Assembly (NCBI RefSeq): GCF_008014675.1
Contig: NZ_VOXD01000021.1
Location: 1 to 64,000 of the forward strand
Direction of reading: 5' to 3'
From: Neolewinella aurantiaca
Lineage (GTDB): Bacteria > Bacteroidota > Bacteroidia > Chitinophagales > Saprospiraceae
Length of the DNA: 64,000 bases
Shown piece after piece: positions 2,921 through 64,000 of this stretch (positions are counted from its first letter, which is position 1; each line of letters begins with the position of its first letter). The translations under genes and the position numbers were made by a program. Under the pieces are notes generated by a model that was given only the letters and a program-made list of their open reading frames with translations, was not told where the DNA came from and ran no database searches.

Positions 2921-2940
2921 TTGCACCCACGTGCCCGCCC
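2921..2940 (-). repeat. Dispersed GGCGC/GGTGCAA element, diverged copy
   Basis: TTGCACCCACGTGCCCGCCC matches the minus-strand form of the dispersed element with several changes. It lies directly before the preferred ATG (2943) of the amidohydrolase gene. Confidence 0.45.
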
Positions 2941-2942
2941 TT

Positions 2943-4478
2943 ATGTTCCTGCTTATGTTTCTTCCGTTGCTGTTGCTCGCGCAGCCAGAAAAAGCAGCGC
3001 CCCGCGGAACAGATTTTGGCGACGGCCCACACAGTCAGTTGATCCTGCGCGGATTGATTCTGATCAATGGGAACTGCGCTCCGCCCACCGGACCGGTGGA
3101 CATTGTAATTGAAGGAAACAAGATTGTCAGCGCAAGTACCGTTGGTGTTCCCGGCGTTGAAATCAACGAAAGACGCCGACCAAAACTGAAGGCCGGTGGC
3201 AAAGAGATCGACTGCAGCGGCATGTACGCCATGCCCGGCTTCGTGGATATGCACGGGCACATGGGCGGACGGGCCCAGGGCACCACGGCAGATTATGTAC
3301 TAAAACTATGGCTGGGTCACGGAATAACGACTATTCGTGAGCCAGGAAGCTTCAACGGCCTCGAGTGGACACTCGACCACAAAAAACGATCGGCGACCAA
3401 CGAAATAGCCGCTCCCCGAATCCGGGCCTACACAGGCTTCGGGATGGGCCGCGAAGAGCCCTTCACTTCGCCGGCCGAAGTAAAAGAATGGATCATCGCC
3501 AACAAGGCCAAAGGCGCCGATGGCATCAAACTGTTCGGCGCCAGCCCAATGCTTATGCAGGCGGCGCTCGAAACCAATAAGGAAATCGGCCTCCGTTCCG
3601 CCTGCCACCACGCCCAAATGGATGTCGGCCGTTGGAACGTCCTCAAATCAGCCCGCGCCGGACTCACCAGTATGGAACACTGGTACGGACTTCCAGAAGC
3701 AATGTTCGAAAATCAAACAGTTCAGGATTATCCCGTTGATTACAACTACCAAAACGAGCAGGACCGCTTCGGCGAAGCCGGACGCCTGTGGGACCAGGCC
3801 GCTAAACCAGGCTCCGAAAAGTGGAATGCCGTGATGAACGAACTCCTGGAGCTCGACTTCACCATCAACCCTACCTTCAACATCTACGACGCTAACCGCG
3901 ACGTGATGCGGGCACGCAACGCCGACTGGCACGAAGAGTACACCCTGCCTTCGCTGTGGAAATTCTTTCAGCCCAGCCGCGTCAGCCACGGGAGCTACTG
4001 GCACAAATGGGGTACGGAACAGGAAGTGGACTGGAAGAAAAACTACCAGTTGTGGATGGCATTCATCCAGGAATACAAAAACCGGGGCGGCCGGGTTACG
4101 GCGGGGTCCGACTCCGGCTACATCTACCAGACCTACGGATTCGGCTACATCCGCGAACTCGAATTACTGCGCGAAGCAGGGTTCCACCCGCTCGAAGTCA
4201 TTCGCTCAGCCACCCTGTACGGAGCCGAAGCACTCGGGATGGACAACGAAATAGGCACCATCGAACCCGGCAAACTGGCCGATATCGTCATTGTCGGTGA
4301 AAACCCGCTGGCCGACCTGAAGGTGCTCTACGGCACCGGCGCCACACGCCTCGACGACGACGGAGAAGTAACCACAACCAAGGGCATCATTTATACCGTC
4401 AAAGACGGTATCGTGTACGATGCGGTAAAACTCCGTGAAGCCGTCAAGGAAATGGTACGGGAGGCAAAGCGACGCTAA
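2943..4478 (+). CDS. Secreted amidohydrolase-family metal-dependent hydrolase
   Basis: A 511-residue secreted enzyme of the amidohydrolase superfamily (imidazolonepropionase/dipeptidase-like). Visible metal-site elements are HxH in FVDMHGHMGG (residues ~102-106), Lys in DGIKLFGAS (~195), His pairs in ACHHAQMD (~222) and MEHWYG (~245), and Asp in TAGSDSGYIYQ (~389). All expected ligands are present, so it should be active; the substrate cannot be told. The frame opens at 2886, but the ATG at 2943 begins a clear signal peptide (MFLLMFLPLLLLAQ) and the extra N-terminus would be encoded by a diverged repeat copy. It converges with the next gene with only 7 bp between stops. Confidence 0.88.
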   Translation: MFLLMFLPLLLLAQPEKAAPRGTDFGDGPHSQLILRGLILINGNCAPPTGPVDIVIEGNKIVSASTVGVPGVEINERRRPKLKAGGKEIDCSGMYAMPGFVDMHGHMGGRAQGTTADYVLKLWLGHGITTIREPGSFNGLEWTLDHKKRSATNEIAAPRIRAYTGFGMGREEPFTSPAEVKEWIIANKAKGADGIKLFGASPMLMQAALETNKEIGLRSACHHAQMDVGRWNVLKSARAGLTSMEHWYGLPEAMFENQTVQDYPVDYNYQNEQDRFGEAGRLWDQAAKPGSEKWNAVMNELLELDFTINPTFNIYDANRDVMRARNADWHEEYTLPSLWKFFQPSRVSHGSYWHKWGTEQEVDWKKNYQLWMAFIQEYKNRGGRVTAGSDSGYIYQTYGFGYIRELELLREAGFHPLEVIRSATLYGAEALGMDNEIGTIEPGKLADIVIVGENPLADLKVLYGTGATRLDDDGEVTTTKGIIYTVKDGIVYDAVKLREAVKEMVREAKRR

Positions 4479-4485
4479 AAAAAGC

Positions 4486-4926
4486 TTATTCCTTTACGTA
4501 CGAAACCCCGATTTCCGTATCGCCGAGGTAGAATACGAAGGTATCCGGGACCGCCTCTCCGGGCTTCACCAGGTCTTGAGCCGTAAAAGTGAACGTAACG
4601 GTTTCAGTAGCTCCTCCCGCAAGGGTAAGGGAAGTACCCACTTGCGGGCGTTTGATCTGTGCTGCGGATTCATCCTTCAGCATCAGGACGACCTCTTCTG
4701 TTATTTCGTTTTTCTCGGTGTTTTCAACCGTAAGGGAGATGCTGAATTCTTCATCGGCGTAGATCGCCGGATCGCTCAGTTCGAAGTTGGAATACTTAAA
4801 TGATTCCGACTTTAAAACAGACTGGCTGTTGACCAGGGTCGCCCGGGCCGGCTGAGCAGACAGCGTAACGGAAACGATGCAGAATAGTGAAAGGGCCAGC
4901 AGGCCCCGCAGGTGGTTAATTTTCAT
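4486..4926 (-). CDS. Secreted Fn3-like domain protein
   Basis: A 146-residue exported protein (signal peptide ending SVTLSA). Its body resembles the fibronectin-III-like domain found at the C-terminus of family 3 glycoside hydrolases: VENTEKNEITEEVVLMLKD, then a proline-containing linker, then LAGGATETVTFTFTAQDL. Here the domain stands alone without a catalytic part. An adhesion or complex-forming role is possible but not shown. It is a single gene, convergent with the amidohydrolase. Confidence 0.65.
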   Translation of the reverse strand: MKINHLRGLLALSLFCIVSVTLSAQPARATLVNSQSVLKSESFKYSNFELSDPAIYADEEFSISLTVENTEKNEITEEVVLMLKDESAAQIKRPQVGTSLTLAGGATETVTFTFTAQDLVKPGEAVPDTFVFYLGDTEIGVSYVKE

Positions 4927-5006
4927 GGAGAATAAGTATTGTAAAGCTAAAGTTAATAATTTGGTGGTTACCCGCTAAGGAACCGCTACGCGAAGTATGA
5001 ATATAC

Positions 5007-5939
5007 CTACTCAAAGCCCTCCGGAATCCGGTCCGGGTAATCCGTTATGATTCCATCTACCCCGAGTTCCAGTAATTCATTCATCCGTTCGGTGGTATTC
5101 ACCGTCCAGGGCACAACGCGCATACCGAGCGCGCTGGCCTCGGCGATGAGTCCGGCATCGGTGTGGATTTCGTAAGGGCTGTAAATCGGCGGCACGAAAC
5201 CGATCGAATCCATTTTTGATTTGAGGTCTCCGGGGAATTCATCGAGGTAGGCAAGTTGAATCTCGGGGCGCTGTTGCCGGATAACGGCCAGCACCGGCGG
5301 GTCGAAACACTGCAGGGTAACCAGTTCCGGCTTCCCCCAGGCATCGAGGTCGGTTAGGACGAGGTCCACAAAGGTATTGCGATCAGGCACGAACTCCGGC
5401 TCGAGGTCTTCCTCGTATTTCAACTCGATATTGTAGCGCGGTGATGGGCGTCCGTGCTGAACACAGTAGCGATCGACGGCTTCGAAAACCTGTAACAGAG
5501 TCGGCTTAACGGCCGGGCGATTGTCCTGTTCCGGAAACCGCGGATGGGGCAGTTTTCCGCAGTCGTAAGTGGCGATTTCAGCAGCGGTGAGACTCCTGAG
5601 GCTGATTCGGTTGTCGTCCCCTTCGGTTAAGCGTTGGCCGTCTTTTGTTTGGCAGATTTCCGGGGAGAGCCAGGGCTCATGGCTGACGATTACGCGGTCG
5701 TCTGCGGAGATCACGACGTCCAACTCCAGTGTTTTTACGGTGGGGTAATCGAGCGCGCGGAGAAAGGCCGGGATGGTGTTTTCCGGCAAAAGTCCGCGGC
5801 ATCCGCGGTGGCCCTGCCAGTCAATTTCTTTAGTCATGATGGTTTCGTTTTCGGCACGGTTCGTTTTGTTTTCGGGGGCGCGGCCGCAGGTGCAAAGCGC
5901 CGTTAGAAAGAGCAATGAGAGCAGAAATTGTGGTTTCAT
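5007..5939 (-). CDS. Glycerophosphodiester phosphodiesterase lipoprotein
   Basis: A 310-residue enzyme of the GlpQ/UgpQ family that hydrolyses glycerophosphodiesters to glycerol-3-phosphate and an alcohol. Family signatures are DWQGHRGCRGLLPENTIPAF (catalytic His, Arg and Glu), ELDVVISADDRVIVSHEPWL (metal-binding Glu/Asp and second His), the middle motif YNIELKYE, and the C-terminal VVPWTVNTTERM with GVDGIITDYPD. The signal peptide ends in a lipobox around ALCTC. A copy of the dispersed element (5877-5896) lies precisely there, so the lipobox codons are part of the repeat. It is monocistronic. Confidence 0.92.
   Translation of the reverse strand: MKPQFLLSLLFLTALCTCGRAPENKTNRAENETIMTKEIDWQGHRGCRGLLPENTIPAFLRALDYPTVKTLELDVVISADDRVIVSHEPWLSPEICQTKDGQRLTEGDDNRISLRSLTAAEIATYDCGKLPHPRFPEQDNRPAVKPTLLQVFEAVDRYCVQHGRPSPRYNIELKYEEDLEPEFVPDRNTFVDLVLTDLDAWGKPELVTLQCFDPPVLAVIRQQRPEIQLAYLDEFPGDLKSKMDSIGFVPPIYSPYEIHTDAGLIAEASALGMRVVPWTVNTTERMNELLELGVDGIITDYPDRIPEGFE
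5877..5896 (+). repeat. Dispersed element copy inside the lipobox of the phosphodiesterase gene
   Basis: GGCGCGGCCGCAGGTGCAAA matches the consensus GGCGCNNNCGCAGGTGCAA completely. On the minus strand it encodes LCTCGRA, covering the lipoprotein cleavage region. Confidence 0.75.
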
Positions 5940-6114
5940 GGGTGATTAGGGTTATTACCAGCGGCGCGCGTTCAGAAAGCAGAAAGGGTGGCTTTATTTG
6001 TTCAGCGCCCGCAGTAGTAAGTACAAGGAGAAATACGGGAACAGGTTCGCTGTTACCCGTATATCATTTGCAGGAATACGCATAGCCTTTTCGGTTTACC
6101 CGTTTCCGCGCACG

Positions 6115-6780
6115 CTACTTAAAGGTAGCGACCCAGGCGGTATAATCGAAGATTGCCTCACGGCGGAGCACTTCTTCTTTCTCAATGCGCCAACCCCGCT
6201 GCTGCAGGGCCATGCGGTAAGCTTCGGGGCCGTGTTGCTGCGGGTGAAGCACATCTCCCGGCAAAGCCTGGAAAATCGGCAGCAGCAATTTATGGCGGTG
6301 AACATCGGAGGTCATCAACAGCTGGGTGCCCTGTTGGGCGTGAGCCGTCAGGGCATCCAGTGCAGCCGCCCAGTCAGATACGTGGTTGATAGCGTTGAAG
6401 CAATAAATCGCCTCAAAGGTTCCTTCTCCGTCGAAAGCCTGTTCGAGGGGTTGGGCCAGGAAGCGGACACCGGGGTAATCGTTGCGGTCGAAAATGGACA
6501 GTTCCGACTCGTAGCTGTCCAGCAGAGGGTCCAGCGCGGAAACCGATTCTATTTTTTCGAGATAGATATAAACGCCGGCAGGTCCGCACCCGGCGTCCAG
6601 GACTTTGCGCCCCGGTACGGGGGTCCATTCGAGTTGTTCGAGGGTACGTTGCCAGTAAGCCTTTTTGTTGCGGAGATATTCCTCGGGCGATTTACCACGC
6701 AGGTAGCGTTGCCACCACTGGCGCTCAAGGAACTGTGCCACCCGCCAGCGCAGGGTCGGTTTGCTTTGTGTTTCAGACAT
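6115..6780 (-). CDS. Class I SAM-dependent methyltransferase
   Basis: A 221-residue Rossmann-fold methyltransferase. Motif I is KVLDAGCGPAGVYIYL (residues ~60-75). An acidic residue follows in SALDPLLDSYE, and post-I/II elements occur around FEAIYCFNAINHVSDWAAAL. It is a member of the UbiE/Methyltransf_11 type; the substrate is unknown. The predicted -7 promoter box (minus strand, 6786-6793) lies only about five bases upstream of the ATG, so the mRNA may be nearly leaderless. It is monocistronic. Confidence 0.85.
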   Translation of the reverse strand: MSETQSKPTLRWRVAQFLERQWWQRYLRGKSPEEYLRNKKAYWQRTLEQLEWTPVPGRKVLDAGCGPAGVYIYLEKIESVSALDPLLDSYESELSIFDRNDYPGVRFLAQPLEQAFDGEGTFEAIYCFNAINHVSDWAAALDALTAHAQQGTQLLMTSDVHRHKLLLPIFQALPGDVLHPQQHGPEAYRMALQQRGWRIEKEEVLRREAIFDYTAWVATFK

Positions 6781-6785
6781 CGCGG

Positions 6786-6793: not shown

Positions 6794-6862
6794 CTTCTAT
6801 CACGGGAACCGGCTTCCCTTTTCCGGCTTCAAAGCTGGCCCAACCGGAGTTCGGAACCGTTT

Positions 6863-8497: not shown

Positions 8498-9889
8498 ATG
8501 ACAAACCAACGCACTATAGCGAATCCCTTTTCCCTTAAAGGGGTGGGCCTGCACAGCGGCGCGGAAGTAAAGCTGAACTTCAAGCCGGCCTCGGAAGGCC
8601 ACGGCGTAAAATTTCAGCGGATTGACCTTGAAGGCCAACCGGTGATCAATGCTGATGTCAACCGGGTAATCAGTACCGACCGCTCTACGACCATCGGGAC
8701 CGGCGACGCTACTGTATCTACCGTAGAACACCTGCTTTCGGCTGTATCCGGGCTACAAATAGACAACCTCCTCGTGGAGATCGACGGGCCGGAAATTCCG
8801 ATCCTCGACGGCAGCGCCAGCCCCTTCATTGAGCCCTTGCTGGAGGCAGGAGTTACAGACCAGGACGCCAACCGGGAGTACTTCATCGTGGAAGAACCGA
8901 TTACCTACCGCGACGAAGAAACCGGCTCCGAACTGGTAGCTCTGCCTTACGACGGCTTCGAGGTGGTAAGTATGATCGACTTCGACAGCCCCGTACTCGG
9001 TCAGCAATATGCTACGCTGCGTGGCTACGAAGACTACGCAACGGAGATTGCTCCCTGCCGGACGTTTGTCTTCCTCCACGAACTCGAGTTGCTCTTCGAG
9101 CATGACCTCATCAAGGGAGGGGACCTTACGAATGCTATCGTGATTGCCGACCGGGTCGTTCCTCAGGAACGCCTCGACAAACTCGCAAAGCGTATGGGCA
9201 AAGAGACCGTAGAGGTTACCAAAGCCGGTATCCTGAATACGCTCGACCTCAAGTTTCACAACGAGCCTGCCCGCCACAAATTACTCGACGTGATTGGAGA
9301 CATCAGCCTTCTGGGTGTTCCCATCCGTGGGCGGATTCTCGCCACCAAGCCCGGTCACGGCAGCAACGTAGCCTTCACTAAGTTGCTCAAAAAGGCTTAC
9401 CTCGAACAGCGCCGGCTTAAGGGCCGGCCCCGTTACAACCCCAACGATACGCCGGTATTCAATACCGAACAGATTCAGGAGATCATGCCTCACCGCTATC
9501 CGATGCTCCTGATCGATAAGATCATTGAAATGGGAGAAGGCTACATTGTCGGCCTTAAGAACCTCACCATTAACGAAGACTTTTTCCAGGGTCACTTCCC
9601 CGGAAACTACGTGATGCCCGGCGTCCTGCAAATGGAAGCCATGGCACAAACCGGCGGATTGCTGGTCCTGACGATGCAGGAGGACCCGATCGGCTGGGAT
9701 ACCTATTTTCTCAAAATTGATAACGCAAAATTCAAGAATTTCGTTGTTCCCGGAGATACTGTCCTCTTCAAGATGGAGCTTGTTGCCCCCATCCGTCGGG
9801 GCTTGTGCCAAATGCGGGGAACCGCTTACGTTGGCAATAAGATTGTTTCCGAAGCCGACCTTGTAGCTCAGATTGTAAAGCGCCCCTGA
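8498..9889 (+). CDS. lpxC/fabZ: Bifunctional LpxC deacetylase / FabZ hydroxyacyl-ACP dehydratase
   Basis: A fusion of the committed lipid A deacetylase and the fatty-acid dehydratase, a known Bacteroidota/Chlorobi arrangement. LpxC (residues ~1-305) shows the zinc His in STVEHLLSAVSGLQIDN and the HKLLDVIGD motif (His and Asp zinc ligands near 265-270). FabZ (residues ~325-463) shows the active-site His in MPHRYPMLLIDKI and the Glu in VLQMEAMAQTGG. The single 463-residue chain couples hydroxyacyl supply to lipid A synthesis. It is followed by lpxA two bases after its stop. Confidence 0.97.
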   Translation: MTNQRTIANPFSLKGVGLHSGAEVKLNFKPASEGHGVKFQRIDLEGQPVINADVNRVISTDRSTTIGTGDATVSTVEHLLSAVSGLQIDNLLVEIDGPEIPILDGSASPFIEPLLEAGVTDQDANREYFIVEEPITYRDEETGSELVALPYDGFEVVSMIDFDSPVLGQQYATLRGYEDYATEIAPCRTFVFLHELELLFEHDLIKGGDLTNAIVIADRVVPQERLDKLAKRMGKETVEVTKAGILNTLDLKFHNEPARHKLLDVIGDISLLGVPIRGRILATKPGHGSNVAFTKLLKKAYLEQRRLKGRPRYNPNDTPVFNTEQIQEIMPHRYPMLLIDKIIEMGEGYIVGLKNLTINEDFFQGHFPGNYVMPGVLQMEAMAQTGGLLVLTMQEDPIGWDTYFLKIDNAKFKNFVVPGDTVLFKMELVAPIRRGLCQMRGTAYVGNKIVSEADLVAQIVKRP

Positions 9890-13214: not shown

Positions 13215-13233
13215 TTGCACCTGCGTGCGCGCC
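13215..13233 (-). repeat. Dispersed element copy, intergenic
   Basis: TTGCACCTGCGTGCGCGCC is an exact minus-strand match to the consensus and the left partner of an inverted pair. Confidence 0.8.
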
Positions 13234-13352: not shown

Positions 13353-13378
13353 GGCGCCGGAGCGCAGGTGCAATGGAG
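13353..13378 (+). repeat. Dispersed element copy, intergenic
   Basis: A match with two extra bases in the variable centre (GGCGCCGGAG then CGCAGGTGCAA), continuing TGGAG as in the copy at 39638. It is the right partner of an inverted pair. Confidence 0.75.
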
Positions 13379-18682: not shown

Positions 18683-18699
18683 GGCGCTGACGCAGGTGC
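18683..18699 (+). repeat. Dispersed element copy, intergenic
   Basis: GGCGCTGACGCAGGTGC, in the divergent promoter region between GLPGLI and the histidine kinase. It shares at least seven further upstream bases (TTCAGGC) with the copy at 39638. Confidence 0.75.
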
Positions 18700-18737
18700 C
18701 GGGGTGGTTAAGCAGCAGTGCTCCTTCGGGGGTAATG

Positions 18738-24999: not shown

Positions 25000-25190
25000 G
25001 GCCTCTGCGCCGACTACTGAGCAGCAACTGCTGAAAACTTTAAAATGGGAATCCGGTGAAAATCCGGAGCTATCCCCGTAGCTGTAAATCCGTGTTGAAG
25101 CGGGTACCAAACAACGTCACTGGAATCGACTTCCGGGAAGGCAGGTACCCGATGAGCGAAGGAGCCAGAAGACCTGCCCGGCGGCGTCAT
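25000..25190 (+). ncRNA. Cobalamin (B12) riboswitch
   Basis: Hallmarks of the adenosylcobalamin aptamer appear in order: AATGGGAATCCGGTGAAAAT (from 25044), CCGGAGCTATCCCCGTAGCTG, a paired CACTGG, CGGGAAGG, and GATGAGCGAAGGAGCCAGAA followed by GACCTGCC (ending 25178). The B12 box GCCAGAAGACCTGCC is intact. It sits in the leader of a BtuB-like receptor gene, so B12 should repress that gene. The distance to the start codon is unusually long (~325 nt). Confidence 0.93.
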
Positions 25191-25283
25191 ACTTATTTTG
25201 CCCCTCGGTGGAAGAGGCGGGATGAAAGCGAACATATGGCTTGCTGCTCAGATCATTCTGTGCAGCCAAGACATTGCTTATGC

Positions 25284-25302
25284 GGCGCGAACGCAGGTGC
25301 AA
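25284..25302 (+). repeat. Dispersed element copy inside the riboswitch leader
   Basis: GGCGCGAACGCAGGTGCAA, an exact consensus match, between the B12 aptamer and the receptor gene, within the transcribed leader. Confidence 0.8.
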
Positions 25303-25468
25303 CGATGGTTAAAGGGCAATGCTCTTCACTCCAACACTTCCTGCTGCGGGCCCTACCCTGCTTTTCTCTCTACTCTTCAGCGCGGTGCTTCACTGACGAC
25401 GTACATCAAATCGTACGCTCCTCCCAATCCTTCACTGGTATAGCGGATGAGCGTTTGGTGTAGGTTGG

Positions 25469-25491
25469 TGACCTGGCTTCAGGTCATTTTT
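25469..25491 (+). terminator. Hairpin with T-run just before the BtuB-like start (possible expression platform)
   Basis: TGACCTG, loop GCTT, CAGGTCA (25469-25486) is a perfect 7-bp stem followed at once by a T-run. It ends 13-18 bases before the ATG at 25504. It could be the riboswitch-controlled terminator or a translation-blocking hairpin. Confidence 0.5.
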
Positions 25492-25503
25492 GCCCTTTTG
25501 TTT

Positions 25504-27417
25504 ATGAACCGTATTCACTTATCTACATTATTACTCCTTTTCGTAACTGGTAGCCTACTGGCCCAAACAGAAGGGGAACAACTCATTTCCACCTCCGCTG
25601 AGGAGGTTGTTGTCACCGGCGCTAAATTTGCCCAACTGCAAAGCGACAGCCCGCAAAACGTGAGCGTGATCGATTCCGCTACCGTCGCGCGGTCTACGGA
25701 CCTGGGTCAGTTGCTCAACGAGCAGGCCGGTATTGTCATCAACGGCGCTTACAGTAACCCGGGTAAAGACAAGTCCGTCTTCCTGCGCAACGGCGCTAAC
25801 CAGTACACCCTTATTTTGCTCGACGGGCAGCCCCTGCTCGACCCCAGCTCCCTTGGCGGAGCGGTTGACTTGCGCTTACTCTCTCTGGACGGAATCGAAC
25901 GGATCGAGATTCTGCGCGGCCCTCAGTCTTTGCTTTACGGTTCAGATGCCGTAGCCGGAGTGATCAATCTCATCTCGAAGAAGGGTGCCGAGAACCCTGC
26001 TTCTCCGAAAAGACCAGCTCTGCACCTGCGCGCCGCCGCCCAAAACTACGGTACTCTGGACGGCGGAATCAGCGTCTCCGGCCACAGCCAAAAACTAGAC
26101 TACCAGGTAGGCTACGACTACTTCAAAACCGACGGCATCAGCGAAGCTGTGGAGCCCGAAGGCAGCACCGCCGAATACAACGAAGACGGCGCAAAGCGCC
26201 AAACCGTGAACGGTAGCGTTACCTACCGCCCCACCCCAAACCTGAGCCTTCGGCCCGCACTGCGCTACGCAACCTTTGACGGAGATTATGACGCCGGTTC
26301 TTTCCAGGACGGAGCGAACACCTACACCAATGAAATGCTGATGCCCAGCATAGCCGTCGACTACTCGAAAAACAAGCTCAGCCTGGGCGGAAGGTACAGT
26401 TACACAAAATCGGATCGTGCCTTTAACGATGCAGTATTTGGAACTTCTAATTTCAACGCAAGCTCTCAGCAAACCGACGTCTTCGGGACCTGGCTCCCTA
26501 CCGAAAAAACCTATTTAACGGCTGGAGTACAACATCGCGACGAACGCCTCCGTCCCGAAGATCCCGGCACCAACGGCCAACCGGGCATGGCCACCACCAG
26601 CCCCTATCTGCAATTGGGAGTCCAGCTTACGCCAATTCTGCTCACCGAAGCAGGCTACCGCTTCAACAGCCGTTCCGGCTACGACGCCCAGAGCAACTAC
26701 TCTCTGGCGCTGATGCTGCAGGCATCCGAAACTTTCAGTGCAAGGGCCAGTCTTTCCAGCGCTTACCAAAACCCAACCATCGACCAACTTGAAGGCCCCT
26801 TCGGAGCTAACCCCGACCTGCAACCACAGGTAGCTACCTCCGTAGATGCGGGCGTAGTATTGCGCGAACCCGATGGCGATTACAGTCTGAATTTCAACGT
26901 GTTCCGCCGAATCATTAAAGACGTGGTCACCTACGATTTCGCCCTCGGATACCAGAACCGGGATGAGTTGTCAGATATAGGCTTCGAACTCTCCGGAACC
27001 GGCACTATTTCTCCACGTCTGGCCGTAAACGGCAACGTGAGCTACGTGAAGGGCAAGCTGAGCCAACCCGATGGAAACGGAGGGACAACGGAAACGGATG
27101 ATTTTTACCGCCGACCCCGCACTACCGGTATGCTGGGGCTTACCTACACTGGTTACGCTCCTTTCCTGGTACGTCTCTCCGCTCACTACACCGGTGAACG
27201 CCCCGACATTTACTTTGACGAGAATTTTTCTTCCTTCGAAGTAGAATTGGATCCTTACCTGATCGTGAATGCCTACGCTGAATACCGCCTCCTGAAACGC
27301 GAAAACCTCCGCTTGTTTGTCGATGTAAAAAACCTGACAAATACCGATTTCGTAGAAGTTACCGGCTTCGGAGTGCTGGGTACTACCGCCAGAATTGGCG
27401 CATCGCTGACGCTTTAG
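25504..27417 (+). CDS. TonB-dependent receptor, BtuB-like (probable corrinoid uptake)
   Basis: A 637-residue outer-membrane receptor that should import cobalamin or related corrinoids using TonB energy. After the signal peptide (MNRIHLSTLLLLFVTGSLLA) comes a TonB-box-like EEVVVTGAKF, the plug (LGQLLNEQAGIVINGAYSNP, KSVFLRNGANQYTLILLDGQP, IERIEILRGPQSLLYGSDAVAGVINLI) and a 22-strand-type barrel (residues ~200-637). The substrate call rests on the B12 riboswitch upstream and on the compact BtuB-like length. The frame opens at 25447, but the ATG at 25504 starts the signal peptide. No btuCDF genes follow. Confidence 0.93.
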   Translation: MNRIHLSTLLLLFVTGSLLAQTEGEQLISTSAEEVVVTGAKFAQLQSDSPQNVSVIDSATVARSTDLGQLLNEQAGIVINGAYSNPGKDKSVFLRNGANQYTLILLDGQPLLDPSSLGGAVDLRLLSLDGIERIEILRGPQSLLYGSDAVAGVINLISKKGAENPASPKRPALHLRAAAQNYGTLDGGISVSGHSQKLDYQVGYDYFKTDGISEAVEPEGSTAEYNEDGAKRQTVNGSVTYRPTPNLSLRPALRYATFDGDYDAGSFQDGANTYTNEMLMPSIAVDYSKNKLSLGGRYSYTKSDRAFNDAVFGTSNFNASSQQTDVFGTWLPTEKTYLTAGVQHRDERLRPEDPGTNGQPGMATTSPYLQLGVQLTPILLTEAGYRFNSRSGYDAQSNYSLALMLQASETFSARASLSSAYQNPTIDQLEGPFGANPDLQPQVATSVDAGVVLREPDGDYSLNFNVFRRIIKDVVTYDFALGYQNRDELSDIGFELSGTGTISPRLAVNGNVSYVKGKLSQPDGNGGTTETDDFYRRPRTTGMLGLTYTGYAPFLVRLSAHYTGERPDIYFDENFSSFEVELDPYLIVNAYAEYRLLKRENLRLFVDVKNLTNTDFVEVTGFGVLGTTARIGASLTL

Positions 27418-29609: not shown

Positions 29610-30278
29610 CTATCCAACTGCCATCAGAAGGATCAGCAGGTAGAGGAAAAACGCAAGAACGAAGATGAAAATGATGCTACTCTCGAGCTGAGCCCGGAGC
29701 TCAGCTCCGGCGGGCTCGTTCCGATCAAAAAGCACAGCCTCCGAATTGAGGGGAGGGAGGATGTCCATTTCACTGAAGAAGCGGCGGATAAAAATCTTCT
29801 TGTTCGACGCGTTAATTTCCTTGTTGTAAAAAGGTAGTTCGCCGGAATCCAGAAGGTTGAGGTCTTCATCCAGTTCGCTGAGCCCGGTGAGCTGAATGCC
29901 ATTGAGGTCGTAAGCAAGCGGACGAACCTGTGCGAACGCTGCTTCCGGAGTAATCTTGTCGGCGAGAACGCGGGTGCGAAGATCGTTGAGGTACGCAGAA
30001 ACCGCGGTGAATTCATCGAAGCTGACCGCAATGTTATTCACCAAAACGACCGTGCCGAATTGATTAAGGATATCTTCCCGGCCTGAACGATCCATACCCG
30101 AAAGTACGGTCAATTCTTTCTCACTCTTACCCTGCTGCACCAAAGATTTGGCCCAGTCTACAAGTACCTGGCTATCCCAGGGATGCAGGTAAAATTTACC
30201 AAGAGCGGTTTGAGCGGGAAGGTTGGATGTGAATGTTTGCACAGCTGTTCGATTATCAGTCAATAGTCTGTGTAGCAA
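29610..30278 (-). CDS. Uncharacterised protein with C-terminal membrane anchor
   Basis: A frame of 222 codons with no recognisable family. It is mostly soluble and helical; the last ~23 residues form a hydrophobic tail (IIFIFVLAFFLYLLILLMAVG), giving a tail-anchored layout. No ATG exists near the 5' end; candidate starts are TTG (30278, 30263) or GTG (30242), so the true N-terminus is uncertain. Motif-like stretches include FYLHPWDSQVLVDWAKSLVQQGKSEKEL. It lies alone between argS and a HAD hydrolase. It is likely real because the frame is long and codon use resembles its neighbours. Confidence 0.6.
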   Translation of the reverse strand: MLHRLLTDNRTAVQTFTSNLPAQTALGKFYLHPWDSQVLVDWAKSLVQQGKSEKELTVLSGMDRSGREDILNQFGTVVLVNNIAVSFDEFTAVSAYLNDLRTRVLADKITPEAAFAQVRPLAYDLNGIQLTGLSELDEDLNLLDSGELPFYNKEINASNKKIFIRRFFSEMDILPPLNSEAVLFDRNEPAGAELRAQLESSIIFIFVLAFFLYLLILLMAVG

Positions 30279-33267: not shown

Positions 33268-33289
33268 TTGCATCCTGCGGCCGCGCCCC
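33268..33289 (-). repeat. Dispersed element copy at the start of the DUF819 gene
   Basis: TTGCATCCTGCGGCCGCGCC, the minus form with two extra bases (TTGCA, TC, CTGCG...). It encodes MHPAAAP and supplies the TTG start. Confidence 0.65.
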
Positions 33290-39637: not shown

Positions 39638-39656
39638 GGCGCTGACGCAGGTGCAA
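39638..39656 (+). repeat. Dispersed element copy, intergenic
   Basis: GGCGCTGACGCAGGTGCAA, an exact consensus match followed by TGGAGG, between pspC-like and Smr genes. Its upstream flank TTCAGGC is shared with the copy at 18683. Confidence 0.8.
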
Positions 39657-39726: not shown

Positions 39727-40740
39727 ATGAAGTTTACAATCGGACAAAAAGTGCGCATGAAGCGCACCGAGAATTACGGCGAGGTAACCAAGCTCTTACC
39801 CGGAGACCTGGTTCAGGTAAAACTGGACGGAGGCCTCGGCCATATACCTATCCCTACTGAAGCATTGGAACCCGCTGAAACCAGGGTCGTCCCGCCCCGG
39901 CACAGCCCCCCACCCCAGCAAAGAAGCAATGCTGAAGTCTCGGGTGGCAACGGCGTTCAAATTGCTTTCGATACCGTTTTGAGCAACGAAGCCATGCCCG
40001 TCGCCTACGAAGTCTATCTGCTCAACAGTACGCCCCATAAGATCATCTATGAGTGTAAGGTTCTCACCCATGCCGACCGCAGGTGGATCAAGGTAGGCCA
40101 GATGGAGCCCAACACCAAAAAACGCCTCGACCCCGTAGAGTACGGCTGGCTCAACGAAAAACTGAGCGTCGAACTCGATGTGCGCACCATCATACCCGGA
40201 GGAACCGGGCCACGGCATTTTCAAAAAGTAAGCATCAAAGGCAAACAATTTTTCAATAAGCTGACCGAGGTGCCCGAGCTTTACCGCGAAGCGCATCTCT
40301 ACGTTGTATTCCCGGAACTCAAAAAACCGACCACGGCACCTGCTGCCGAGCCCAAAGGCCCCACCCTTAAAGCACTGACCCGCGAAGTGATGGCCAAAAA
40401 TCCCCCTCCAAAACCTGCGGAGAAGCCAGGCCGGACCAATCTCCGGGCTAAGATGGATTTCGAAAACACCATCGATCTTCACCTCGAAGCGCTCGTCCGC
40501 GACCCTGGAGAAGTTCCGCGCGATCAGGTGCTCAGCACCCAGATTCGCCACTTCGAGAACTACCTGAGTATGGCACTTAAGCTCGGCGTCGACAATATTT
40601 TCGTCATCCACGGCGTCGGCGACGGCATTCTGAAACGGGAGGTACACAAGGTCCTGAGCAAAACCCGATACGTACGTAAGTTCAAGAACGAATACAACAA
40701 AAAATACGGGTACGGAGCAACCGAAGTCATCTTCGATTAA
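39727..40740 (+). CDS. DUF2027/Smr-domain protein
   Basis: A 337-residue cytoplasmic protein: an N-terminal SH3-like region (IGQKVRMKRTENYGEVTKLLPGDLVQVKLDGG), a DUF2027 beta domain (~75-210), a Pro/Ala linker, and a C-terminal Smr domain (~250-337). The Smr domain has the conserved DLHLEAL and HGVGDGILKREVHKVL motifs. Smr domains nick DNA or RNA, for example at collided ribosomes; the catalytic HGxG is intact. This Bacteroidota architecture lacks MutS2. Confidence 0.92.
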   Translation: MKFTIGQKVRMKRTENYGEVTKLLPGDLVQVKLDGGLGHIPIPTEALEPAETRVVPPRHSPPPQQRSNAEVSGGNGVQIAFDTVLSNEAMPVAYEVYLLNSTPHKIIYECKVLTHADRRWIKVGQMEPNTKKRLDPVEYGWLNEKLSVELDVRTIIPGGTGPRHFQKVSIKGKQFFNKLTEVPELYREAHLYVVFPELKKPTTAPAAEPKGPTLKALTREVMAKNPPPKPAEKPGRTNLRAKMDFENTIDLHLEALVRDPGEVPRDQVLSTQIRHFENYLSMALKLGVDNIFVIHGVGDGILKREVHKVLSKTRYVRKFKNEYNKKYGYGATEVIFD

Positions 40741-47645: not shown

Positions 47646-48048
47646 CTCTATTTGATTTACGTCGGTTTAAATAATTTTCGTGTGAGTTACGGATACAAAA
47701 TTCTCTCCCGGCATCCCGCCTGGAGGGCCCAAAGCAGTAGGCGACGTGTTGATCACAAAATACACCTAAAACTACGGTTATTCTGGCTTTGATGTTACGG
47801 TAAAGTAGGTTAACAACATACGAATCACTCTTTAAGCAGACAGCTCTGAACAGATGCAACCGATAGATGGCAGGCATCTCTCCGGCGAGCGTTTGGGAAG
47901 CTAGCTAAAGCCTCCTTGCCTCAAAAGCATTTATTGCACCCGCGGCCGCGCCCGCAGAAAGCGTAAGAGACCACCGTGTATATGATTACTCAGGAGCGGC
48001 AATTTGTCCTTCTAAAACCCAGACAATAACATATCGCTAAAAACACGT
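47646..48048. other. Divergent intergenic region
   Basis: About 400 bp between divergent genes with no credible ORF. It contains a dispersed-element copy (47934-47953) and the promoter-proximal sequence of the ABC exporter gene. Confidence 0.6.
47934..47953 (-). repeat. Dispersed element copy, intergenic
   Basis: TTGCACCCGCGGCCGCGCCC, the minus form with one substitution (CC for CT), ~110 bp before the ABC exporter gene. Confidence 0.75.
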
Positions 48049-50289: not shown

Positions 50290-50307
50290 GGCGCGAACGC
50301 AGGTGCA
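50290..50307 (+). repeat. Dispersed element copy, between exporter genes
   Basis: GGCGCGAACGCAGGTGCA, an exact match lacking the final A, in the 250-bp gap between the ABC and HlyD genes. Confidence 0.8.
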
Positions 50308-50509
50308 GTGAGAGGTTCAAGGAGTCCGGTAAGAAAAAGGGAAGTCCTTCTGCTCATACTGCTTGCCGACAAAGTGGCAACATGCTTTGTACACCGTCGT
50401 TTACAGATATTAGCATACGGCTCCAGTAGGCCACAATTCTATCGTCCCGCAGCTGGCAGTTTGCTTTACTTAAATTGCTTTACTTTACATCTCCAGCCAA
50501 AACCAGGCC

Positions 50510-53660: not shown

Positions 53661-54599
53661 CTACTTTAAACCTTCCAGATCAACAGCTACTACCCCGCTC
53701 TTCGCAATCACCTGAGCACCAGCCTTATTAGAAAGCTTTGCGATATCCTCCAACGACATACCTGCGGCGAGGCCACAAGCGGCAACGGAAATTACGGTGT
53801 CCCCGGCTCCGCTCACGTCGCGGACTTTTTTGGCGTCGGTCGGGTAAATAGCGGATTTTTTTCCGGCGCTGACGTAGATGCCATGTTCGCTAAGCGTAAT
53901 CATCACCGCCGAGCATTGCAGGCGGTCAAATAGTACGTTGGCGGCCTTATCCAGGTCCTCCAGTACAGGACGAACGGGAAAGTCTACCTGCTGCTGTATT
54001 TCCCGGAGGTTTGGCTTGAAGAGTGTACAGTCCGTAAAAGCCATAAAGTTGCGGTCTTTGGGGTCTACCGCGGTCGGAACATTGTGTTCCTGCGTGAGCG
54101 CAATAACGCTCCTGATCACATCGGCGGAGAGCACGCCTTTGTTGTAGTCCTGAAACAACAGGAGGTCGACGGAGCCCTCAGCCAGCATTGCTTTCACCGC
54201 GTCTTGCAGTGCACCTGCGGCCGCGCCCTGAACGTCGTGCGTATCCTCGCGGTCGACCCGCATAAGCTGTTGTCCTCCAGCTACCAGCCTCGTCTTGACG
54301 GTCGTGCAGCGATCCGGGTCGGTAACGATCAAATCGGAGGAAAGGCCAAGCCCTTCCATCAGTTCCCGGAAAACGACGCCGTTGGCGTCGTCGCCAACCA
54401 GGCCCGCCAACAACGGTGTGGCGCCGAGGGCCTTCAGGTTCAACGCTACGTTGGCTGCTCCTCCCAGTCTGTTTTCTTCATCGCTCAACCGCATAACGGG
54501 TACCGGCGCTTCAGGGCTGATGCGCTCGACCTTACCGTCCAGGTACCGATCAATCATTACGTCGCCAAGGACGAGGATCCGGAGAGAAGAAAAGTCCAT
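53661..54599 (-). CDS. HldE-type D-glycero-beta-D-manno-heptose-7-phosphate kinase domain (PfkB family)
   Basis: A 312-residue sugar kinase of the RfaE/HldE N-terminal domain type, for ADP-heptose in LPS core. Family motifs: VLGDVMIDRYLDGKVERISPEAPVPV, NRLGGAANVALNLKALGA, LLFQDYNKGVLS and, for catalysis, the anion-hole DVSGAGDTVISV. Only the kinase half is present; the nucleotidyltransferase half of E. coli HldE is absent. ATG 54599 is preferred to 54647. A dispersed-element copy (54210-54228) lies in frame and encodes Ala/Gly residues of QGAAAGALQ. Confidence 0.9.
   Translation of the reverse strand: MDFSSLRILVLGDVMIDRYLDGKVERISPEAPVPVMRLSDEENRLGGAANVALNLKALGATPLLAGLVGDDANGVVFRELMEGLGLSSDLIVTDPDRCTTVKTRLVAGGQQLMRVDREDTHDVQGAAAGALQDAVKAMLAEGSVDLLLFQDYNKGVLSADVIRSVIALTQEHNVPTAVDPKDRNFMAFTDCTLFKPNLREIQQQVDFPVRPVLEDLDKAANVLFDRLQCSAVMITLSEHGIYVSAGKKSAIYPTDAKKVRDVSGAGDTVISVAACGLAAGMSLEDIAKLSNKAGAQVIAKSGVVAVDLEGLK
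54210..54228 (-). repeat. Dispersed element copy inside the hldE-like gene
   Basis: TGCACCTGCGGCCGCGCCC, an exact minus-form match; in the coding strand it encodes an Ala-rich surface segment. Confidence 0.7.
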
Positions 54600-59322: not shown

Positions 59323-60447
59323 CTACTGCAGCAAGGAAAGTACCTTTTCGCGCTCCTCCTTCGTATTGGCGTTGGTGAAAGGGGCTTCGTTTTCCACTAC
59401 CAACTCTTTTACATCGCTATTGATCAATACTTTACGCGGGCAGGCATACCCCATGGCCAGGAATTGCAATAACCGCGGGTAAGCCTTCGGTTCGTAGATG
59501 GCAACGAGAGGTTCAGGAAATCGCTGGGACGAAAGCTGGTAGGCTGTGGCGAGTTTGCCGGAGGCTCGGGCTTCGATCAATGCAGAAATTTGTTCTTTTT
59601 CGAGCAGAGGAAGGTCGCAGGCGAGCACGAGCCAGGCGGCGTTGGGATCGGTAAGGAAGGCGGTGGCAATGGCGCCGGCGGCGCCCAGGCCGGGGAAGCG
59701 ATCAGCCAGGTTAGGGAAATTGCCCACGGGCTCCTGCCCGGGTTCAGCGACGGAGATATGGACACTTCCGGGGAGTAATTCATCACAGATAGATGCCAGG
59801 CGTTCGGCTTCCGTCTGGCCATCGGAACGGTAAACGAGGTCGGCTTTACGTTCGCCCATCCGTTCACTTTTGCCGCCGGTAAGGATGAGGGTTTTCAGGG
59901 CGGGGACGCGGGTGCCAAGTAAGTTGAGAAGCAGGGGTAAGACCATGTTTTCTGCTTCCGACAGCGTGCAGACCAGCGGAGCGGGCCGATCGGCCAATTG
60001 TTCCTCCAACCAAGCCGGCACCTGCTGCCGAGCCTCATCTACCATCACGATCGCCGACACATCAGTCAGTTGCTCTTGGCGGCGCTCCAGGGTACTCGCT
60101 TTCTGCTCGTCGACGAACACGATCTGGTGCGCGGCGGGATAATGATTTCCGTTGACGAGGGCACAATCATAGTGGCCGCGCTGAAGCCGTTCGTCGTACT
60201 CATTCCAGCCTTCGGCTGGCGTACCGAAGCGCTTATTGCCCGTTTGGAACAACTTGCCGGCAAGCGGATCAGCATGGTCTCCGATCACCGTAAGGGTATT
60301 GTGATCGGGCTGAAGTTTTTCGGCCCATTCAACGATGAGCTTATCCATTACAGCGCAGGTGGAACCAACAAGGGCTATATCCGTACGGGCGTAATGATCG
60401 CCTTCAGGACGGGTCAGGGGCGGATGTTTCTGGTGTGGCTTTTTCAT
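59323..60447 (-). CDS. MobB-like/MobA-like fusion (molybdenum cofactor nucleotidyltransferase)
   Basis: A 374-residue protein. The C-terminal half (~185-374) is a MobA-type nucleotidyltransferase (LILTGGKSERMGERKADLVY, PGLGAAGAIATAFL, WLVLACDLPLLEKEQI, FPEPLVAIYEP), which attaches a nucleotide to molybdopterin. The N-terminal half resembles MobB (CALVNGNHYPAAHQIVFVDEQK, DVSAIVMVDE), but its P-loop reads VGSTCAVMDKLI, lacking GKT/GKS, so it probably cannot bind GTP normally. It overlaps the stop of moeA by four bases (ATGA). Confidence 0.83.
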   Translation of the reverse strand: MKKPHQKHPPLTRPEGDHYARTDIALVGSTCAVMDKLIVEWAEKLQPDHNTLTVIGDHADPLAGKLFQTGNKRFGTPAEGWNEYDERLQRGHYDCALVNGNHYPAAHQIVFVDEQKASTLERRQEQLTDVSAIVMVDEARQQVPAWLEEQLADRPAPLVCTLSEAENMVLPLLLNLLGTRVPALKTLILTGGKSERMGERKADLVYRSDGQTEAERLASICDELLPGSVHISVAEPGQEPVGNFPNLADRFPGLGAAGAIATAFLTDPNAAWLVLACDLPLLEKEQISALIEARASGKLATAYQLSSQRFPEPLVAIYEPKAYPRLLQFLAMGYACPRKVLINSDVKELVVENEAPFTNANTKEEREKVLSLLQ

Positions 60448-61634: not shown

Positions 61635-61819
61635 AGGAGGCAAGGTAACTCAGATCGGTGGCATTTTTGGCTTCTGCGGCGCGATCCTGCGACAATGTTA
61701 CGGTGTTTTCTTTTTTGAAGAGAAGTGCCCGGACTCAGTCGTTGAGCAGGATGCAACCCTTGGATACCGGGATCGTCATTCTTGTAAGAACAGGTCTGGG
61801 CAGGATTCCTTAAAGTCCT

Positions 61820-61827
61820 TATTTTTG
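61820..61827 (+). promoter_or_regulatory. -7 box (TATTTTTG) for the coiled-coil gene
   Basis: A perfect TAnnTTTG match, 22 bp before the ATG at 61850. Confidence 0.45.
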
Positions 61828-61849
61828 TATTCACCACAACCAATCAACC

Positions 61850-62881
61850 ATGAAACTGTATTTCACCCTATTTGGTCTGCTGCTAAGCGTAGCAACCATT
61901 TCTGCTGCGGAGAGCGATGCTCTTTCAACTTTCTCTGCACCTGCGGCAGCGGCTACTCAAATCGACAGTTTGCCCGGCGGGCGCCATAAAGTGAGTTCGT
62001 ACCGCAATGGATCTTCGATTGAATTTACCGTAGAGGACCATGAAATCAAATCGCTGAAAGTTGACGGAGAGGAGGTTCCGGCCAGTAAATACGACCAGTA
62101 TATGGACCGGGTCGAGAATCTGCTGGGTACCGGTACCGACAATCAGCATATCGGCTCTGGCATGGGCATGTTCTCCGATGAGGAGTCATTGCAAAAAATG
62201 GAAGAGCATTTCGAAAAATTGGGCGAGAGCTTCGAATTACGTTTCGAAAACCTGGGCGAAGACTTCGAACGGATGGGTGAACGCCTTGGCGAAAGCATCG
62301 AACGAATGTTCGAGTTCGATGGAAACGGCAACACCATGCGTTTCGAATTCCGGGGCGATGACGGTAGCTGGTTCATTGACAGTACCGGCATCGACGAATC
62401 GTTTGAATGGCACTCCAACGGGATGGACCCCAAAGGGCTGAATCAGGACATACCCACCGGAGAGCACCACCAGGCCGAAGAAGAAATTCGGGAAATGGAG
62501 ACGATGATTGAGCAGTTAGAGCGCAAAAAGGCCCGCATGAAGGCCGACCTGGAGCGCCAGGAAAGAGACATTGAACTGCAGCAACGGGACATGGAACGGC
62601 AGGAGCGCAGCGCAGCACGCGAGCTGCGCAGTATCGAGCGTCAAGAGATGAGAATGGAGCGCCGCGAAGCCAGCTACGAAGTGCTGGTGGAACAACTTCA
62701 GCGCGAAGGCCTGATCGAAGGCAACGATCTACTGAGGAAACTTTCCGTTGATGCTCAGAAGTTGAAAGTGAACGGTAAGAAGGTCTCTGAGGAAGGCCAC
62801 GCCCGCTTTCTGGAACTTTACGAGCAACAGACCGGCCGGGCGATTAACGGCAAAACATCCATCTCGATCACGATGGATTGA
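61850..62881 (+). CDS. Secreted coiled-coil protein, unknown function
   Basis: A 343-residue exported protein (signal ending TISA). After a ~65-residue beta-like region comes an acidic helical repeat segment with a recurring pattern (FEKLGESFELRFENLGEDFERMGERLGESIERMFEF), a short domain, then a Glu/Arg/Gln-rich coiled coil (EMETMIEQLERKKARMKADLERQERDIEL). The C-terminal ~60 residues (LKVNGKKVSEEGHARFLELYEQQTG) resemble C-terminal segments seen in some BlaR1/M56-associated envelope proteins, which is a weak guess. A dispersed-element copy (61936-61953) lies in frame near the N-terminus (FSAPAAAATQ). Confidence 0.75.
   Translation: MKLYFTLFGLLLSVATISAAESDALSTFSAPAAAATQIDSLPGGRHKVSSYRNGSSIEFTVEDHEIKSLKVDGEEVPASKYDQYMDRVENLLGTGTDNQHIGSGMGMFSDEESLQKMEEHFEKLGESFELRFENLGEDFERMGERLGESIERMFEFDGNGNTMRFEFRGDDGSWFIDSTGIDESFEWHSNGMDPKGLNQDIPTGEHHQAEEEIREMETMIEQLERKKARMKADLERQERDIELQQRDMERQERSAARELRSIERQEMRMERREASYEVLVEQLQREGLIEGNDLLRKLSVDAQKLKVNGKKVSEEGHARFLELYEQQTGRAINGKTSISITMD
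61936..61953 (-). repeat. Dispersed element copy inside the coiled-coil gene
   Basis: TGCACCTGCGGCAGCGGC, a partial minus-form match encoding Ala residues of APAAAA, just after the signal peptide. Confidence 0.45.
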
Positions 62882-62940
62882 GTTTGGGCCTAAAAGATTG
62901 AAGGTCTGGCGTAAGGGCTGAGTTGGAGGTAATCTCCGGC

Positions 62941-63324
62941 TCAGCCCTTGCCAATTACGCGGATACGTCTGAATAGTTCTTCGCGGCAATTCCGGGAGAG
63001 TGGCAGGGTTTTCTTGCCGGTACGAAGGGCCTTGTCTCCGATTCCATCAATATGAAGAACGTTGGCCAGGTAAGAGCGATGGATACGTATGATATTGCCC
63101 TGAGGCAGTTGGCGCTCCAGGGCGCCAAGGGAAAGAGAGAGGGTGAATTCACGACCGTCGGTAGTAACCAGGTGGCAATAGGCTCGATTGGCTTCTACGT
63201 AGCGGATTTCGGAGGTCATGATTCGCGTCATTCGTTTTTTGTAGTGCACGTAGATCCGATCCCGACGCGGGTCGGGAGATCGTGGGTCGCTGGTGATGGT
63301 GAGTTGTCCGGATTGAAAAGCCAT
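62941..63324 (-). CDS. LytTR-domain DNA-binding protein (no receiver domain)
   Basis: A 127-residue protein that is essentially one LytTR DNA-binding domain: RIYVHYKKRMTRIMTSEIRYVEANRAYCHLVTTDGREFTL, then SLGALERQLPQGNIIRIHRSYLANVLHIDGI. The receiver domain of AlgR/LytR regulators is missing. ATG 63324 is preferred to the frame start 63375. It is 96 bp downstream of a HisKA_2 histidine kinase gene on the same strand, so it may be its output partner despite lacking a phospho-acceptor. Confidence 0.85.
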   Translation of the reverse strand: MAFQSGQLTITSDPRSPDPRRDRIYVHYKKRMTRIMTSEIRYVEANRAYCHLVTTDGREFTLSLSLGALERQLPQGNIIRIHRSYLANVLHIDGIGDKALRTGKKTLPLSRNCREELFRRIRVIGKG

Positions 63325-63420
63325 AGCGTATGAGTTGTGTTCTGGTCCAAAACTCAGGACTGAAGTGAACGGCAACGAATGGTTCTTTCCGAAGGGTGGC
63401 TTTCCCTTTCCGAAGGGGAG

Positions 63421-64000
63421 TCAGGATGGTCGTTCATTGAACCGCAACTCTGTTTTGAGTCCTCCATCATTTACTTCGTTGAGGGTTCCTCCCAACTGCC
63501 GGGAAAGGAGGTCTACCAGGCGGGTACCGAAGCCGGATCCGGTGGCCGGCGCGTCGAAGTCTTTGCCGGAGCCGTTGTCTTTGACCCGAAGGAGGTAACT
63601 GTTTCCTTCCTTGCTCAGCCCGACTTCCACTGCACCTGCGGCCTCGCCCTCAGCAGCCGAGCCAAACGCATACTTGATGGTGTTGGTGAGCAGTTCGTTG
63701 ACGATTAAACCGAGGGGGACGGCGGTATCGACATCCAGTTCCAGAGGGGACATTTTGACGTCGACCTTGATTCGTTCTTCTGCTTCGTAGGTTTCCAGTA
63801 AGCTTTCTGCGAGGTTATTGAAATAGTCTTCCATCTCAATGGCCGCCAGGTTATCTCCCTGGTACAGTTTCTGGTGCAAGAGGCCCATGCTTTGCACCCG
63901 GCTTTGTCCGGCCTGCATGGCGTCACGTGCATCTGAATCGGCGAGTCCTACCGACTGCAGTTCCAGAAGGCTGGAAACGACCTCGAGGTTATTTTTTACG
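63421..64000 (-). CDS. HisKA_2-type sensor histidine kinase, C-terminal part (runs off window end)
   Basis: The C-terminal part of a kinase. The partial DHp region begins at the edge as VKNNLEVVSSLLELQS, which is the sequence right after the HisKA_2 phospho-acceptor His (HRVKNNL). An HATPase domain follows (LIVNELLTNTIKYAFG, VKDNGSGKDFD, GSGFGTRLVDLLSRQLGGTL). The sensor part lies beyond 64000. A dispersed-element copy (63631-63649) encodes part of EGEAAGAVE. Confidence 0.88.
   Translation of the reverse strand, partial: VKNNLEVVSSLLELQSVGLADSDARDAMQAGQSRVQSMGLLHQKLYQGDNLAAIEMEDYFNNLAESLLETYEAEERIKVDVKMSPLELDVDTAVPLGLIVNELLTNTIKYAFGSAAEGEAAGAVEVGLSKEGNSYLLRVKDNGSGKDFDAPATGSGFGTRLVDLLSRQLGGTLNEVNDGGLKTELRFNERPS
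63631..63649 (-). repeat. Dispersed element copy inside the HisKA_2 kinase gene
   Basis: TGCACCTGCGGCCTCGCCC, the minus form with one change, encoding Gly/Ala residues in a loop of the ATPase domain. Confidence 0.6.

Follow-up and report, generated by a model that had tools for sequence, protein, structure and literature searches.

A 64,000-nucleotide stretch of the Neolewinella aurantiaca genome (contig NZ_VOXD01000021.1, positions 1 to 64,000; hereafter the window) contains copies of a dispersed element that recurs on both strands throughout the genome. Copies in the same orientation exclude one another across ~2–3 kb whereas copies in opposite orientations do not, a strand-specific arrangement that is newly described here. 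Our data make it quite plausible, though well short of certain, that the element marks DNA of the Neolewinella clade as self throughout the genome, much as an uptake sequence would, that molecular drive maintains it, and that its reader treats each strand separately.

Copy number, placement and spellings of the element

The pattern GGCGCNNNCGCAGGTGCAA has 17 matches in the window at up to three mismatches, whereas 100 dinucleotide shuffles give an expectation of 0.85 and never exceed 4, which confirms the original prediction of a dispersed repeat family. A genome-wide count against controls, proposed with that prediction, points the same way: the 6.0-Mb genome holds 1094 matches at up to one mismatch, split 540 to 554 between the two strands, and the reversed pattern has none. 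Predicted coding DNA holds 71 matches at up to one mismatch and its synonymous shuffles a mean of 2.3 (maximum 5 in 20 shuffles), so neither codon usage nor protein sequence explains the coding copies, and codon bias was rejected as their source. A position profile applied at >14 bits to 855,532 bp of this genome (the window plus 791,532 bp more, about 14% of the total) identified 289 copies, or one per ~3 kb, compared with 1 in one Markov-2 control. Extrapolation of this density gives roughly 2,000 copies for the whole genome.

The profile yields the consensus GGCGCGGMCGCAGGTGCAADGnAnGKTTnnnRG, with about 16 well-conserved positions and a weak T-rich stretch immediately upstream. The core of ~19 bp that had been proposed is real but the conserved unit is longer, ~35 bp, reaching downstream to about position 33–38 with information at background by about position 39. 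Some copies carry an inserted base or a shifted first half.

Half of the copies lie within genes. Among the 286 classified copies of the 855-kb sample (3 of the 289 are unclassified), 141 are intergenic and 145 fall in predicted genes, 71 in sense and 74 in antisense orientation. As predicted coding DNA makes up 84–87% of the sample and intergenic DNA 13–16%, copies are ~3.5-fold enriched between genes, the gene calls being a hexamer-based choice of open reading frames with uncertain start codons and not an annotation. The earlier statement that most copies are intergenic was thus too strong (9 of 19 in the window), although the excess behind it holds. Orientation set against GC skew in 20-kb steps of the sample shows no bias by eye, without a formal test, and thus gives no sign of the strand skew for which a check had been suggested.

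LpxC places the genome in the Neolewinella/Lewinella clade: the protein is 93% identical to that of N. persica, 88% to that of N. agarilytica and 94–96% to those of three metagenome-assembled genomes (labels: Lewinella for two, Bacteroidia for the third). The protein is fused to a FabA-like domain in a single gene (window 8498–9889). Among 298 genomes of the family, the six of this genus have 85–1117 matches and the other 292 have 0–4. All 21 genomes of the genus match the wider pattern GGCGSNNNCGCAGGTGCAA at up to one mismatch, with 3 to 1346 matches each, and low counts within the genus at least partly reflect other spellings. When motifs were refined on stretches from seven genomes, seeded with the over-represented 10-mers of each, six spellings emerged at one copy per 2.6–5.2 kb: GGCGCGGMCGCAGGTGCAA in G000 and G193, GGCGCTGCCGCAGGTGC in G242, CGCAGGTGCC in G276, a GGGGGCGCAGGAGCA-like form in G006, GGCGGCGGAGCGCAGG in G305 and GGCTANCAAAGTAGCA in G303, the samples being small for G305 (23 sites), G006 (34) and G276 (42). 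The G303 spelling GGCTANCAAAGTAGCAATG occurs 848 times in that genome at up to two mismatches and 0–5 times in each of the other 20, and the G303 form may be homologous or have arisen independently.

High-scoring copies in an 80-kb stretch of G303 (L239–L242, G303:C59; 21 copies) often lie ~5 kb apart, besides close pairs, a spacing not seen in a second stretch of that genome (6 copies). Stretches of G193 and G242 (L213–L232, L253–L262) hold other abundant repeats, TTGCAGGGGTTGCA-like and TTTGGTGCTTTG-like, which unlike the element cluster closely in one orientation. In viral contigs, the raw count of matching stretches is at least 80; of the 80 listed, 79 match once and 1 twice, and two of them belong to one contig.

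Same-strand exclusion and in-place origin

Adjacent copies in the N. aurantiaca sample are opposite in 222 of 284 cases, compared with 144 ± 8.6 after shuffling (maximum 173 in 2,000 shuffles). Same-strand pairs closer than 1.5 kb number 2 against 73.6 expected, and the observed/expected ratio then climbs from 0.29 (1.5–2 kb) through 0.49 (2–2.5 kb) and 0.70 (2.5–3 kb) to 0.97 (3–4 kb), with 0.77 at 4–5 kb. Spacing on each strand is even (coefficients of variation, CV, 0.47 and 0.54), and opposite-strand pairs show no clear exclusion at 1.5–3 kb. A combined curve for G000 and G193, in which the G193 set uses a looser threshold, gives same-strand ratios of 0.11, 0.08, 0.17, 0.28, 0.36, 0.61 and 0.92 in successive 500-bp bins.

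The direction of the exclusion, not its strength, is common to six other genomes. Same and opposite neighbours number 36 and 99 in G193, 14 and 44 in G242, 9 and 32 in G276, 9 and 24 in G006, 5 and 17 in G305, and 21 and 30 in G303. Same-strand pairs closer than 1.5 kb are fewer than expected in each of them (observed/expected: G193, 11/35.4; G242, 2/12.9; G276, 1/6.6; G006, 2/6.1; G305, 1/3.3; G303, 7/15.6). Site turnover was also simulated with a toy birth-death model that removes any site made redundant within a fragment: strand-specific redundancy on 2.5-kb fragments gave a similar, sharper curve, whereas a strand-blind version also excluded opposite pairs and did not fit (one run each).

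As a control we analysed 200 kb from each of two Neisseria genomes, G699 and G462, which are two of the eight genomes with more than 1,800 copies of the DNA uptake sequence (DUS) and provided 297 and 231 sites. These DUS-rich genomes came from an order-level search; a locus labelled Neisseriaceae, L085, belongs to a genome without the DUS core, whose family has 0–3 per genome. DUS exclude one another over ~100–500 bp only, alike for all orientations, in G699, and not at all in G462. The element does not share the spacing of these two genomes, which is blind to orientation beyond very close pairs, a property of the two genomes and not a formal definition of DUS.

The exclusion could also arise if the tag did something else and direct repeats, whose recombination deletes the intervening DNA, were purged while inverted copies remained harmless. 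This explanation accounts for an effect that is both orientation-specific and distance-dependent, and gene order around copies does vary among relatives, as with a gene inverted beside a conserved copy in G116. We nevertheless find it doubtful because the copies are short and imperfect, because the ratio is still 0.29 at 1.5–2 kb, which is far for short-repeat deletion, and because Neisseria DUS lack a long-range orientation-specific effect, DUS being a weak control here as they are shorter than the element.

How copies come and go was followed at orthologous loci in relatives, as had been suggested with the original prediction. Nucleotide alignments covered 49 copies in 184 comparisons, a set that includes weak sites (>13 bits) possibly due to chance; the copy was conserved in 117, and of the 67 comparisons without it, 20 aligned with no gap, 43 with small gaps and 4 with a gap of at least 15 bases. 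Protein alignments with relatives were available for 24 of the 130 in-gene copies and gave 75 comparisons. The copy was present in 23 of these and missing from 52, of which 36 were free of gaps, 3 had a gap of at least 5 residues and 13 had a small gap or one of another kind. The 52 are unevenly spread: two copies in one gene account for 24 and a second gene for 9. Taking each of the 24 copies once, 13 are missing from one or more relatives without a gap, and for 3 every lacking relative has a large gap. Absence was scored with the N. aurantiaca profile, so that a relative's own spelling could count as lacking. In a clear case, within a signal peptide, the element is present in G000 and G307, and 11 of 14 lacking comparisons align gap-free. 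Some copies hold their position and orientation across species. Alignment with no gap or small ones across sites that lack a copy indicates that copies arise and decay mostly by substitution in place.

These results bear on the proposal that the element is a mobile unit like the repetitive extragenic palindromic sequences and their mosaic clusters (REP/BIME), spread by REP-associated tyrosine transposases (RAYTs), or like miniature inverted-repeat transposable elements (MITEs). The element resembles REP/BIME in being dispersed, often intergenic and found in inverted pairs, its copy number is high, inverted pairs 60–200 bp apart are enriched, a few lacking comparisons do show large gaps (4/67 and 3/52), and one relative encodes a Y1-type transposase beside a copy. 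It differs in having neither a supported palindrome nor a consistent insertion footprint and in placing half of its copies within genes. For most relatives without a copy, the alignment runs across the site unbroken or with small gaps, and positions and orientations are conserved between species. The sole stem that can be drawn shows no covariation, and in 75 of 323 copies a G or A at position 5 faces G14. With two Y1 queries, no match was found in 855 kb of the 6.0-Mb N. aurantiaca genome; in the sampled stretches of relatives, the G303 gene was the only significant match, besides one at chance level in G305 (E 0.19). Mobility, already disfavoured by these data, is therefore a most improbable explanation.

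A hairpin formed on single-stranded DNA (GCGC with GTGC, or GCTA with TAGC in G303) was rejected given the missing covariation and the frequent breaks at position 5. The G303 transposase (217 amino acids, PF01797 at 28 bits, L239 8047–8700) has a dialect copy at most 10 bp from its stop codon, and a convergent dialect copy lies 286 bp beyond. At L039 14582–14622, two variant copies (GGCGTGGCCGCAGGTGCAA) lie inverted with three bases between them, so placed that they could fold into a hairpin. Local inversion between convergent copies, for which there is one suggestive case, was set aside; a scan of 18 orthologous loci and the window found inverted blocks in 11 locus pairs, which all involve L039. 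A gene that lies between two convergent copies in N. aurantiaca has the reverse orientation next to a conserved copy in G116 and is found elsewhere in G193 (coordinates of the gene: L319 5475–5870 in G116; L123 11304–11705). Matches to a 20-kb N. aurantiaca stretch are spread over several contigs of relatives.

Inverted pairs could alternatively act as transcription terminators. The 855-kb sample contains 26 convergent pairs closer than 210 bp, yet only 2 lie between convergent genes, the remainder falling between divergent genes (7), between co-directed genes (13) or inside genes (4), and most copies stand outside such pairs. Termination was accordingly rejected as the main role, for which we see hardly any likelihood.

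Possible roles: uptake tag or polar site on the resident chromosome

If the element is an uptake tag, a sequence-specific reader would act on DNA entering, or about to enter, the cell. Tagged DNA would be favoured for transport or recombination, and tagged alleles would then displace untagged ones by molecular drive, so that tags would build up by point mutation wherever they are tolerated. As only same-strand tags look mutually redundant, over ~2–3 kb, the putative reader would see one strand at a time, either on DNA that is single-stranded as it reaches, or once it has passed, the ComEC channel or through a strand-fixed direction of import, and not on pilus-bound duplex. A fixed import direction should, by reasoning, also exclude either convergent or divergent pairs and would not alone be a full explanation. 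Co-evolution of reader and tag would produce species dialects. A more specific version, that Bacteroidota possess a pilus-independent system of self-recognition for DNA exchange, with a long tag read on single-stranded DNA, independently spaced sets on each strand and dialects acting as gene-flow barriers, is a tentative possibility.

ComEC (PF03772) is encoded in 21 of 21 genomes of the genus. A search of the same genomes for the type II/IV pilus ATPase (PF00437), pilins not being searched, gave no convincing match: 20 of 21 have a weak one, 11 of them nominally at or no more than 0.6 bits above the 24.9-bit cut-off, and those of N. aurantiaca (23.4 and 21.6 bits) are below it. The matches cover mostly positions 139–222 or about 120–174 of 370, mostly in frames of 886–1074 or 631–737 amino acids, and the marginal ones probably represent other ATPases. 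As judged by this ATPase search, the genus gives no convincing sign of the pilus machinery (type IV, with a minor pilin as receptor) that characterizes DUS and the uptake signal sequence (USS), and the element is not a classical member of either class.

Neisseria DUS occur in thousands of copies per genome. A DUS is a word of 10–12 bp recognized by ComP (PMC3630211), which is itself a minor pilin of type IV (PMC12061091). Copies lie on both strands, in and between genes (PMC1939737). Like the element, DUS are confined to one lineage, and they too have species dialects (PMC3630211). Inverted pairs are common to the element and to DUS in our control genomes. The element differs from DUS in its length (~19–35 bp), in its phylum, in the lack of a convincing pilus ATPase and in the kilobase range of its strand-specific exclusion. 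The USS of Pasteurellaceae, compared here through published descriptions, our spacing controls being Neisseria and E. coli, is similarly dense and dispersed, with no orientation bias round the chromosome (PMC1939737, PMC7811141); its spacing is fairly even in some accounts and of limited evenness in others (PMC1939737, PMC7811141), its core spans 9 bp (PMC1626085), and its uptake is reported to be orientation-independent (PMC1939737). In common with DUS and USS, the element is extremely abundant on either strand within the genomes of a single lineage, differs in spelling between related species, and is gained and lost in place by substitution while being tolerated in genes.

Several observations weigh against the uptake-tag interpretation. 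(i) Long-range strand-specific exclusion is absent from the two Neisseria genomes, whose uptake system is known. Opposite neighbours prevail there too (206/296 and 141/230), largely through convergent pairs closer than 50 bp, which are strongly enriched, so that alternation alone is not special to the element; the kilobase range is. (ii) The simple model explains neither the enrichment of convergent pairs closer than 200 bp in N. aurantiaca (25 versus about 5) nor the mild depletion of divergent pairs closer than 1.5 kb (21 versus 36.6), and its agreement with the same-strand curve is consistency and not proof; the redundancy rule was built into it. (iii) Exclusion is weaker in relatives, as the G193 and G303 counts above illustrate, with looser site sets. 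(iv) ComEC is also found in 10 of 14 control genomes, and such a widespread protein supports uptake weakly. (v) An uptake tag predicts element-poor foreign islands, and none is evident in the 855 kb, where the longest gap is 10.9 kb and mobile genes were not identified. (vi) Uptake, the reader, reading on a single strand and drive are all steps that we infer.

The main rival to an uptake tag is a polar signal that the resident chromosome itself would use and that would be read on one strand, either a Chi-like site for recombination, repair or DNA processing or an anchor for a polar nucleoid or loop protein, with one site required per strand every few kilobases. Chi sites, recognized by RecBCD or AddAB, are dispersed polar sites of which one strand is read. 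Even per-strand spacing and strand-specific redundancy could be selected by a polar reader that travels along DNA, and no pilus machinery would be necessary. In 350 kb of E. coli K-12, however, the 78 Chi sites do not exclude one another on the same strand, with 10 pairs closer than 500 bp against 6.2 expected. The element is also not a short, octamer-class motif with leading-strand bias: it has ~16 well-conserved positions against the 5–8 bases of known Chi sites, and its orientation has no evident bias relative to GC skew by eye. Moreover, selection alone would hardly replace a thousand sites for each spelling. We regard such a polar site as conceivable but on the whole unlikely. A binding site for nucleoid or replication functions, as put forward in the original prediction, or for repair stays among the candidates. 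Among the roles suggested there, uptake or self-recognition is the best supported, and mobility is not supported.

Uptake sequences have been described for Pasteurellaceae and Neisseriaceae (PMC7811141), and in the sources searched, which mostly excluded subscription papers, we saw no description of an uptake sequence in Bacteroidota or of this element. Known uptake sequences are tied to type IV pili. If the uptake-tag interpretation is correct, a further, independent and pilus-free origin would suggest that DNA self-tagging is a general outcome of molecular drive. Strand-specific exclusion would then be a quantitative fingerprint of the form of DNA seen by the reader and would make the question of drive versus function testable, with each dialect offering a ready cross-species test.

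Copies in the window

The profile set comprises 19 window copies: 16 of the 17 pattern matches (53865 was left out) together with 33268, 40334 and 60016. Fourteen of the 16 positions listed originally are among the pattern matches; 33268, a one-base insertion form (GGCGCGGCCGCAGGATGCAA), was picked up by the profile only, and 26021 is absent from the profile set and is not counted. The position given as 13353 is corrected to 13355, and those given as 54210, 61936 and 63631 were off by one. The motif TTCAGGC is indeed present upstream of both 18683 and 39638.

Table 1. Profile-defined copies of the element in the window, with strand and score.
Feature	Position	Strand	Evidence
Element copy	2921..2939	-	Profile 26.2 bits; 3 mismatches
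Element copy	5877..5895	+	Profile 39.8 bits; 0 mismatches
Element copy, conserved in L032	6863..6881	-	Profile 30.1 bits and pattern
Element copy	13215..13233	-	Profile 32.9 bits and pattern
Element copy, first half shifted	13355..13373	+	Profile 20.6 bits and pattern
Element copy	18683..18701	+	Profile 30.5 bits and pattern
Element copy	25284..25302	+	Profile 35.2 bits and pattern
Element copy within predicted gene	29961..29979	+	Profile 24.0 bits and pattern
Element copy with one-base insertion (AGGATGCAA)	33268..33287	-	Profile 20.1 bits (33269-33287)
Element copy	39638..39656	+	Profile 35.4 bits and pattern
Diverged element copy within predicted gene	40334..40352	-	Profile 26.0 bits
Element copy immediately 3' of predicted stop codon	45209..45227	+	Profile 33.0 bits and pattern
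Element copy	47934..47952	-	Profile 36.5 bits and pattern
Element copy	50290..50308	+	Profile 38.3 bits and pattern
Element copy within predicted gene	54209..54227	-	Profile 30.5 bits and pattern
Element copy within predicted gene, convergent pair with 60016	59899..59917	+	Profile 35.0 bits and pattern
Diverged element copy, convergent pair with 59899	60016..60034	-	Profile 22.1 bits
Element copy within predicted gene	61935..61953	-	Profile 33.3 bits and pattern
Element copy within predicted gene	63630..63648	-	Profile 32.7 bits and pattern

The window also contains a cobalamin riboswitch (87.4 bits) at 25012–25195; the gene downstream of it, at 25447–27417, encodes a TonB-dependent receptor.

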